From assembly GCF_018847975.1 (NCBI RefSeq), contig NZ_CP072597.1:2829001-2893000 (forward strand): a DNA stretch of 64,000 bases, read 5' to 3'. Position 1 is the stretch's first letter, and each line of letters starts with the position of its first letter. This document shows, one piece after another, positions 57,851 through 60,137 of this stretch. The notes beneath the pieces were generated by a model, which searched no databases, had not been told where the DNA came from, and was given only the letters and a program-made list of their open reading frames with translations. Source of the DNA: Lysobacter sp. K5869 (GTDB lineage: Bacteria > Pseudomonadota > Gammaproteobacteria > Xanthomonadales > Xanthomonadaceae). The position numbers were made by a program, and so were the translations under genes.

Positions 57851-58031
57851 CGCGCTCCTCGGGGATTAAAGATGGCCGCGACGCCGATGCCGTCGCTGCC
57901 GCCGCAATCTCTTTGCGGCGCATGAGGTTGCCGACTCAAGGATGAGTAGAAAATGAGCCTTGTTTTGGCGGATGCATCGAGGAATGATGTTTCCAGCGCA
58001 TCGGCATCCGCCGATGTTCCAGGGAGGGGAC

Positions 58032-58964
58032 ATGAAAAAGGCCGCCGCGGGTTTCTCGTTCCTGTCGCTTCTGCTCGCGACGCATAGTGGGTTGGCGCAG
58101 ACTACGATCGAATACGTCCATACCGATGCGCTCGGCAGCCCGGTAGCGGTCACCGATGCGGCCCAGAATGTGGTCGAGCGGTTGCAGTACGAGCCTTATG
58201 GATGGACGCTGGATGCCGTGGTCGATGGCCCTGGGTATACGGGGCATCTGACCGATGCTGCGACCGGGCTCGTATACATGCAGCAGCGCTATTACGATGC
58301 GTCGATGGGCATTTTCCTGTCGATAGACCCTGTGACGGCCCTGGCGGCCCCCTTAGTGGGCTTCAATCGTTATCGGTATGCGCTAAGCAATCCATACGGA
58401 TTCAAGGACCCGGACGGGCGTTGGGTCTGCAACGGCGAATCCTGCGCCAAATTCGAGAAAGCGCTGGAGCGCGTCGTCGCAGCGGCCAGCAATCCTCGAT
58501 TGACCGATGACCAGCGTGGTGTCATGCGGCAGGTGGTCTCGTTTTACGGTCCTAAAGGCGACGCCAACGTTCGAGTGTCGTTCAACGAGTCGATGAGTAC
58601 CGACGGCTCCGCGGCCATGCGGAAGAGCGGCGGTCACGATATTCAATTCAATATGAGCAGACTCTCCCACCGCTCGGGCGATAACTTCATTCCGAATTTT
58701 GCCCGCCAGACTGCGCATGAAGGACAGCACGGGGTGGATGATATGGATCGCAGGCGCCCCGTCGCCACGCTTGCCGAGCGAAAAGCGACGGAGGTCAACT
58801 CCTATCGCGCAGCGGCGATCTACCAGAAGGCCGACCAAGTCGTGTTCAGTAGTGTCGATGGGTGGACTCCGTGGGGAGGCGTCAACGAACAGGCGATTCG
58901 CACGCAAGCGGACCTCTCTGTTGCCGCTGCTTGTCGGGGCGTCGCCGAAGGCAGTTGCCAATGA
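58032..58964 (+). CDS. short secreted RHS-core protein with C-terminal HExxH domain
   Basis: 310 aa. It has a signal peptide (MKKAAAGFSFLSLLLATHSG, cleavage near GLAQ) and a good GGGAGGGGA ribosome-binding site. Residues 24-130 carry only the terminal RHS core (YVHTDALGSPVAVTD, YMQQRYYDASMGIFLSIDP, NPYGFKDPDGRW), far shorter than normal RHS proteins. The C-terminal domain (131-310) has HEGQH (H229-x3-H233) and E254 about 20 residues on, the zinc-metallopeptidase pattern. Four cysteines flank it. Its TGA overlaps the next ATG (58961-58964). GC is near 55% in the sampled stretch against ~70% nearby, so it is probably acquired. The toxin role is inferred. Confidence 0.88.
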   Translation: MKKAAAGFSFLSLLLATHSGLAQTTIEYVHTDALGSPVAVTDAAQNVVERLQYEPYGWTLDAVVDGPGYTGHLTDAATGLVYMQQRYYDASMGIFLSIDPVTALAAPLVGFNRYRYALSNPYGFKDPDGRWVCNGESCAKFEKALERVVAAASNPRLTDDQRGVMRQVVSFYGPKGDANVRVSFNESMSTDGSAAMRKSGGHDIQFNMSRLSHRSGDNFIPNFARQTAHEGQHGVDDMDRRRPVATLAERKATEVNSYRAAAIYQKADQVVFSSVDGWTPWGGVNEQAIRTQADLSVAAACRGVAEGSCQ

Positions 58965-59470
58965 GCGGCCGGCGTCGGATGCGACTAGTTGCGTTTGCGC
59001 TATTCGTAGCCGTCTCGCTTTTGTGCGCTATCGGTTGTGCAAGTCGAGCGAGTCTTCTGGGAAACCAAGCGGCGACGTTGGGATCGGGTTGGGATCCGCC
59101 TTCTTTTTTCTTCAAGCCCGGGCTGCCAAAAGTGGGAGACCGCTTGTCCGGCTCCACCGACGAGCGTTTCACAAGAACCGAGGCGATGCTGCTCGATACG
59201 ATCCGGATGATGAAGGCATTCCCGGATTGGCGCTTCGAGATCAGGGCGTCCACCGATAACGAGGAGTGCGTCGGGTCGGCCTGTGCCGAACTTTCGTTGC
59301 GGCGGGCTATCGTCGTGCGCGATTGGCTGCTTGAGCATGGCGCTCCGGCGGCGTCGCTGAAGCCATTGAAGGCATTGGGCTCGATGGAGCCGCTGGCGGA
59401 CAATTCCACCGAGGACGGACGCCGCATCAATCGGCGCGTCGAGTTCGCGGTGGAATTGCCCAGCGGCTGA
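58961..59470 (+). CDS. OmpA-like domain lipoprotein (first of tandem pair)
   Basis: 169 aa. A lipoprotein-type signal (MSGRRRMRLVAFALFVAVSL, Cys ~26 in AIGC) is followed by a linker and an OmpA C-terminal-like peptidoglycan-binding domain. The latter shows RASTDNEECVGSACAELSLR, RAIVVRDWLLEHG and the ending RRINRRVEF. A Cys pair (EEC...SAC) is shared with the next protein. It overlaps the RHS gene by four bases, so the two are made together. It is probably anchored in the outer membrane and bound to peptidoglycan. It could be an immunity protein for the RHS toxin or a structural partner; neither is proven. Confidence 0.83.
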   Translation: MSGRRRMRLVAFALFVAVSLLCAIGCASRASLLGNQAATLGSGWDPPSFFFKPGLPKVGDRLSGSTDERFTRTEAMLLDTIRMMKAFPDWRFEIRASTDNEECVGSACAELSLRRAIVVRDWLLEHGAPAASLKPLKALGSMEPLADNSTEDGRRINRRVEFAVELPSG

Positions 59471-59478
59471 TTTCGTCG

Positions 59479-59973
59479 ATGACGGACAATCGAGCGCAGC
59501 TCCAGCCAATCGTAGGAACGTTTCTGGTTCTTCTTCTGACGGCTTGCGTCAACGGATCGGAGCGCCTCGGAAAAAACGGCGGCTTGGCGTCGGGGCCGGA
59601 TCTGCCCCCGGTTTTTTTCAGGTCTGGTTTGCCGGCGAGCGAAGGTGGGTTGATGGATGCGCTGGACGACCGGATCACCGATCCGAGCGGGGCGCTCCGG
59701 AATGCTCTGCAGGCGGCAAACGCCAATTCCAAGGTTAAGCTCGAAATCGGCGGCCATGCCGACCTTGAAGAGTGCGAAACCACGGATTGCTACGCTTTGT
59801 CGCGGCGCAGGGCAGCGGCGGTCCATGCCTGGTTGGTCGGCCATGGGATTTCAGAGCGCGCGTTGTCGGCTCCGAAAGGATATGGCCATGACCGGGCCAT
59901 TGCCGCGGACTCGACGGATTCCGAGAGGAGGTACAACCGTCGCGTCGAATTCAGTTTGGTTGGGCCCCGCTAG
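59479..59973 (+). CDS. OmpA-like domain lipoprotein (second of tandem pair)
   Basis: 164 aa with signal and lipobox LTAC (Cys 23). The OmpA-like domain shows GGHADLEECETTDCYALSRR, RAAAVHAWLVGHG and the ending RRYNRRVEFSL. It clearly resembles the preceding protein in order and motifs (including PP-x-FF-x-x-GLP near residue 45-53 in both), so the pair probably arose by duplication. It begins 8 bp after the previous stop. Both are lower in GC than the flanks, like the RHS gene. Confidence 0.83.
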   Translation: MTDNRAQLQPIVGTFLVLLLTACVNGSERLGKNGGLASGPDLPPVFFRSGLPASEGGLMDALDDRITDPSGALRNALQAANANSKVKLEIGGHADLEECETTDCYALSRRRAAAVHAWLVGHGISERALSAPKGYGHDRAIAADSTDSERRYNRRVEFSLVGPR

Positions 59974-60137
59974 CCTTTGATGGCGACGTGCCGTTGCAAG
60001 ATGGCTCGAACGAAGATGGCCGGTGCGCCAATCTTCGGGCGGAGCTGGCCGCCGAATGGCCTTGATCGATGGAACATGCGTTCGACGTTGCGGGTCGAAG
60101 CTCGCAACGTTCCATGCGGTCGTGCTGGCGGCGGCGA

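Follow-up and report, generated by a model that had tools for sequence, protein, structure and literature searches.

The window analysed here, a 64,000-nt stretch of Lysobacter sp. K5869 (NZ_CP072597.1, positions 2,829,001 to 2,893,000), carries a cassette of three genes encoding a short RHS protein and two OmpA-like lipoproteins. We consider it likely that this is an acquired polymorphic toxin–immunity cassette, in which an exported zincin toxin is paired with two OmpA-like immunity lipoproteins. The genes, together with the C-terminal domain (CT) of the RHS protein, which defines a clade that we call CT1, are as follows.

58032..58964, + strand: short exported RHS protein, putative toxin, 310 aa from ATG (open reading frame (ORF) list)
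58422..58961, + strand: C-terminal domain CT1, residues 131-310 (180 aa), predicted zincin metallopeptidase
58961..59470, + strand: OmpA-like lipoprotein 1, 169 aa, putative cognate immunity protein (PF00691; linkage to CT1; co-divergence with the CT)
59479..59973, + strand: OmpA-like lipoprotein 2, 164 aa, tandem paralogue and putative second immunity gene (PF00691; 35% identity to lipoprotein 1)

An ATGA overlap joins the stop of the RHS gene to the start of the first OmpA-like gene, and 8 bp separate the first OmpA-like gene from the second, confirming the layout and coordinates given in an earlier prediction made from this DNA (hereafter the original prediction).

Linkage and co-divergence of the C-terminal domain and the OmpA-like gene

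Relatives of the window's CT are patchily distributed (21/297 family genomes, CT1 and CT2 together) and form two sister clades, the window-type CT1 and CT2; a second short RHS protein of the same Lysobacter genome (L021) belongs to the latter. The domains behind related cores vary; classing by the CT sequence only divided 111 distinct RHS hosts into 10 CT1, 15 CT2 and 86 other CTs. Of these, 107 had at least 700 nt of downstream sequence, the four hosts dropped being three of the other class and one CT2; identical CT ends, frames extending past the end of the sequence and CTs shorter than 60 aa were also dropped before the count. An OmpA-like gene stands directly after the CT in 10/10 CT1 loci, 0/14 CT2 loci and 0/83 loci with other CTs (Fisher p=2.8e-14, a statistic that ignores shared ancestry). 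The control loci were taken among the matches listed, with open frames below about 600 aa, so that short RHS genes are favoured and long ones under-represented. The 0/83 count rules out OmpA genes as a general feature of RHS loci, and the survey bears out, in all ten window-type loci, the pairing of domain and lipoprotein on which the original prediction depended.

CT1 loci were found in Lysobacter, Luteimonas, Chiayiivirga, an uncultured Xanthomonadaceae bacterium and Tahibacter caeni, the last belonging to another family. The carrier is a short RHS protein in four loci and a frame of 1046-1670 aa in three, and is cut or unclear in 3/10 (L047, L049 and L052); full-length relatives with a CT1-clade domain are found at L026, L030 and L031. 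A class-wide CT1 profile search recovered 1/369 genomes, the window's own, and a scan of named genomes returned seven loci, six of them repeats of known loci and one, Tahibacter caeni, new. Two of the ten CT1 proteins (L029 and L031) are shortened C-terminally and still keep the OmpA gene, and up to four OmpA-like copies lie near one CT1 (L121). The gene after CT2 encodes a different small exported protein, with no Pfam match in the two examples scanned; this partner carries an RHG-like motif in many copies (L021 at G000:C1:5800000-5813000; L032-L043). A CT1-type short RHS protein labelled Pseudomonas aeruginosa (P0008) lies on an 8.7-kb contig and is possibly mislabelled or contaminating.

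Across nine CT1 loci (L047 excluded), Mantel tests gave r=0.93 (p<=1e-4) for CT against OmpA distances, r=0.01 (p=0.46) for RHS core against OmpA distances and r=0.19 (p=0.25) for RHS core against CT distances. Because CT distances track OmpA distances while RHS core distances track neither, the CT and OmpA-like proteins, judged by their sequence divergence, behave like a toxin–immunity module that is exchanged as a unit, whatever the carrier. A clade-specific neighbour that co-diverges with the CT has the marks of a cognate immunity gene, its immunity function being putative, and the toxin–immunity reading of the original prediction thereby gains strong comparative support.

These results also bear on whether the RHS protein might be an ordinary exported peptidase with hitchhiking lipoproteins and no role in conflict. 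Its phenotype is not known and its CT has no Pfam family, which would suit such an enzyme, but the CT-specific linkage, the co-divergence with the partner and not the carrier, the patchy distribution of CT1 and CT2 and the insertion pattern described below all argue against it, and we regard it as most improbable.

The C-terminal domain as a predicted zincin

58716..58730, + strand: HEGQH motif, residues 229-233 (H229, E230, H233), kept in 55/55 aligned sequences
58791..58793, + strand: E254, candidate third zinc ligand, kept in 55/55 aligned sequences

The HEGQH motif and E254 reported in the original prediction are present and, with E230, kept throughout the alignment of 55 sequences (window included), in which the spacing from the first H to the distal E is 20-30 residues. 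The AlphaFold2 model of the CT is confident, and zincin peptidases account for 47 of the 50 structure matches listed for it, with middling scores. Because the four motif residues are kept in every aligned sequence and zincins make up 47/50 of the listed structure matches, the CT probably belongs to the zincin-type metallopeptidases, which supports this part of the original prediction.

Pfam scans of the window CT and of 16 CTs returned chance-level matches and no family (ISL3 transposase PF01610, E 0.09-0.23, far below the cut-off; NF033550, E 0.036), and solved structures, searched with a profile built from the CT alignment, yielded no match at E values up to 10. Peptidase_M91, the NleD-HopH1 family, had no hmmscan match in 16 CTs at E values up to 10, a search whose sensitivity is limited by the HMMER filters. 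The CT relatives were gathered from another protein search and from genomes, a single-sequence protein search with the CT alone having reached six proteins.

OmpA-like lipoproteins within and beyond CT1 loci

59255..59305, + strand: D99-R115 segment of lipoprotein 1, presumed peptidoglycan-peptide site, with the C103/C108 pair

At 33.3 and 35.1 bits, the two lipoproteins exceed the Pfam threshold for OmpA (27.2 bits), upholding the OmpA-like identity originally assigned to them; OmpA domains occur in 297/297 genomes, so the OmpA fold alone is no evidence. The AlphaFold2 model of lipoprotein 1 has alternating strands and helices (mean predicted local distance difference test (pLDDT) score 87). 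Residues D99, E102, C103, C108 and R115 are invariant among 17 aligned family members, and the D-to-R motif is present in 19/19 ORFs, a set in which overlapping loci count one gene twice. Because D99 and R115 align with the D and R of OmpA-domain structures, positions that we take to bind the peptidoglycan peptide, the peptidoglycan site of these partners seems to be intact. A lipobox pattern follows the signal peptide in both window lipoproteins (by regular expression only) and failed for some relatives (L030, L031, L047 and copy 3 of L121). The OmpA-like lipoproteins matched no NCBIfam equivalog at cut-off.

In the 297 family genomes, 20 OmpA matches of the full type reach 150 bits or more, with 14 at CT1 loci (many of these were in the search profile itself), three in an array at L020 and three at L153, L154 and L155. 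The L020 array lies in the same genome as the window (1159061-1161271), behind another short RHS gene whose product has an unrelated HExxH CT (HEIHH) and which is followed by a gene for a 171-aa exported protein. One OmpA-like protein of this array is 71% identical to the CT1 partner of Lysobacter enzymogenes, its closest aligned member. The full cluster (G000:C1:1159061-1163000), the second RHS cluster of this genome, comprises a long RHS gene, the short RHS gene, the gene for the 171-aa protein and the OmpA-like genes, one of which encodes two fused OmpA domains.

At L155, an orphan OmpA-like gene lies behind a long RHS gene with a different CT, and a relic of a CT1 3′ end (AACQGSTEGSCR followed by a stop) sits directly before the OmpA start, in the right frame and at the right distance, as the best-scoring of 26,912 places in the locus. 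The L153 orphan, which is 58% identical to the L031 partner, stands among 25 copies of a repeat that we take to be attC-like, and an integron integrase is encoded on a different contig of its genome. The stretches examined around the L153 and L154 orphans contain no RHS core. G271 has a more distantly related OmpA, and an integron integrase is encoded within a few hundred bases of it. OmpA-like genes were observed beside or among attC-like repeats at L153, L156 and L158, in integron-type arrays of two genera, and weaker relatives score about 96-115 bits (G058, G006, G271, G269, G040:C6 and G291).

The original prediction had also offered retention of the RHS product at the outer membrane as a role for the lipoproteins. 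They would then tether an exported RHS protease to both outer membrane and cell wall, making it a surface protease, and this fits the peptidoglycan anchoring established for OmpA domains, the retention of D99 and R115 and the tight operon with its ATGA overlap. The tether idea is weakened by the same OmpA family occurring without the toxin (the L020 array, L153 and L154, the L155 relic, the attC-like repeats), by the homologous CT2 having another small exported partner and no OmpA neighbour in 14/14 loci, and by the tandem copies, up to four at L121, which a tether would not need. We therefore think display unlikely and prefer immunity, because OmpA partners are also found without CT1.

Three loci depart from the simple pattern. 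At L020, an OmpA-like gene follows a non-CT1 RHS gene (HEIHH), not as the first gene but two genes on; at L155, one lies 2.2 kb behind another RHS CT; and at L160, an OmpA of the weaker type (100.7 bits) is the second gene behind a long RHS gene whose product ends with HEMGH and whose core scored too low for entry into the survey. A small lipoprotein-like ORF lies between the HEMGH RHS gene and the distant OmpA relative at this last locus (L160:2-6148).

The short exported RHS carrier

58032..58097, + strand: putative signal peptide, MKK...GLA (from the sequence, cleavage site by eye; AlphaFold2 helix at residues 2-20)
58188..58418, + strand: single RHS-associated core, residues 53-129 (TIGR03696, E=4.4e-18)

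TIGR03696 scores 65.6 bits on the window RHS protein (cut-off 32.5), in line with the original description of a 310-aa protein retaining the terminal core only, and PF03527 falls below its cut-off (17.7 vs 27.9 bits). The arrangement that characterises RHS polymorphic toxins, a TIGR03696 core before a variable domain, is thus present. The pLDDT of the AlphaFold2 model is mostly below 50 across the core part (residues 51-130). Shell-forming RHS/YD repeats were not found in the window protein, which has a single core; one RHS core is not enough to build the shell seen in full RHS toxins. An N-terminal hydrophobic segment was detected in 74 of the 84 short RHS frames surveyed, using a crude hydrophobicity rule.

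It has to be asked whether the short gene is a silent donor, a store of CT and immunity gene that recombines into full-length RHS genes. CT1-clade domains do occur on carriers of either length, accompanied by the OmpA gene, and an excerpt of PMC5361080 mentions orphan CT modules for RHS loci. A silent store would, however, have no need of the hydrophobic N-terminus seen in most short frames by the crude rule, and the window copy stands isolated, without a long RHS gene adjoining; we judge this explanation very improbable.

As the comparisons bring out, short, exported RHS proteins with a single core form a large group in Lysobacterales. Among the 120 protein matches listed, a non-RHS Pfam domain is precomputed for six, all short exported RHS proteins (P0087, P0091, P0092, P0097, P0100 and P0105). 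The domains are PF01551, PF14410, PF14859, PF14891, PF05951/PF08291 and PF01844/PF14279, several of which we take, from their names, to be peptidoglycan- or peptidase-related.

Insertion site and base composition

57851..60137, no strand: inserted stretch, with rhomboid and tetratricopeptide repeat (TPR) genes as borders (about 2.3 kb here vs 22-668 nt in 13/19 congeneric genomes)

The rhomboid gene is present in 20/20 genomes of the genus, and in 13 of the 19 other congeneric genomes the rhomboid and TPR genes are neighbours, 22-668 nt apart, and the interval contains no match to RHS or OmpA. Because the flanking genes adjoin without the cassette in these 13 genomes, the conclusion that it was acquired, by insertion into an otherwise intact site, is supported, as the original prediction had it. 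In the remaining six, the TPR gene is absent from the rhomboid flank examined; reading the flank further revealed neither the TPR gene nor the cassette in five, and the sixth reaches a contig end. L148 (G173) is rearranged downstream of the rhomboid gene, with an AAA-ATPase-like frame in place of the TPR gene.

Each cassette gene has a GC content of 60-62% (GC at third codon positions (GC3) 0.69-0.72), compared with 67.5% (GC3 0.95) for the upstream rhomboid gene and 69.7% for the whole window. The GC dip first described is therefore real, although the figure of 55-57%, drawn from sampled 60-bp stretches, overstated it. There was no Rfam match at gathering thresholds, and no promoter-like sites were found; terminator-like sites number five against 2.4 expected, from which no interpretation is drawn. 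A plasmid search returned no record with one place covering at least 80% of the query protein.

Proposed mechanism

We infer the zinc chemistry, toxicity, neutralisation, location and delivery of the RHS toxin as follows. The RHS protein would be exported by Sec, and its CT, a disulphide-stabilised zincin metallopeptidase (HExxH plus E), would act beyond the cytoplasm, the most likely site being the periplasm of related competitors. The OmpA-like immunity lipoproteins would reside at the outer membrane, held by their lipid and the peptidoglycan-binding OmpA domain, and would there neutralise incoming or self-made toxin, with lipoprotein 1 as the cognate partner and lipoprotein 2 as a paralogue that may widen protection. 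A type II secretin scores above cut-off in this genome, and delivery by a type VI secretion system (T6SS) is unlikely in this strain, given no match to TssC (one model only). Overall, the earlier interpretation is partly supported: the probable zincin CT, the acquisition and the toxin–immunity pairing gain support, and retention at the outer membrane is the part that is weakened.

As to the OmpA domain, it may serve as a scaffold keeping the inhibitor at the cell wall, or it may mimic the target. Under mimicry, the metallopeptidase would hit the link between outer membrane and peptidoglycan, at an OmpA/Pal-type domain, a lipoprotein linker or the peptidoglycan peptide bound by such domains, and the immunity proteins would be toxin-specific duplicates of the target class, decoys that bind the enzyme at the cell wall or outcompete it there. 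We regard mimicry as conceivable but rather doubtful. If true, in Lysobacterales a pool of OmpA decoys would be spread by integron arrays and by RHS loci, and the pair would point to an envelope target in Gram-negative bacteria. The toxin–immunity reading itself would add an unusual immunity family drawn from a housekeeping peptidoglycan-binding fold and paired with an unassigned metallopeptidase toxin domain. Natural controls are at hand in CT2 with its different partner, the orphan array partners and the integron-borne copies.

Comparison with known systems

The literature searched, with subscription journals mostly outside it, contained no OmpA-domain immunity family and no account of short exported RHS proteins. 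In an excerpt of the polymorphic-toxin survey PMC3482391, OmpA features as a toxin-side domain and not as immunity, and TpeV of V. cholerae may likewise carry an OmpA-like domain on the toxin side (PMC8386463). The lipoproteins share with the peptidoglycan-binding domains of Pal, OmpA, YfiB and YiaD an OmpA domain with conserved D and R; unlike these, they are short and toxin-linked, have the invariant C103/C108 pair and match no NCBIfam equivalog at cut-off.

Zincin toxin domains of the Tox-MPTase1-5 and HopH1 type have been described on RHS carriers (PMC3482391), and the window protein resembles them in its RHS carrier and variable C-terminal, predicted zincin domain. In the excerpt they are listed without an immunity partner, whereas the CT here lacks a Pfam match and follows a single core.

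The closest experimental analogue found is the pair formed by the C-terminal domain of VgrG2b and PA0261 (Tpe1-Tpi1), a periplasmic T6SS metallopeptidase toxin with an envelope immunity protein, in which the toxin lowered lipoproteins in membranes (PMC6899460). Likened by description only, both systems combine an HExxH peptidase toxin (predicted in our case) with envelope immunity (a lipoprotein in some species there) in an invariable gene pair. They differ in that the carrier here would be a Sec-exported RHS protein in a strain with no detectable TssC, and the candidate immunity protein is an OmpA domain.

Finally, T6SS loci of V. cholerae retain orphan immunity genes left by displaced toxins (PMC5361080). 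The arrays described here are similar, with apparently old candidate immunity genes, kept downstream of a newly arrived toxin module, that resemble the partner genes of other strains, and are distinguished by consisting of OmpA-like lipoprotein genes, some of them among integron-type repeats.
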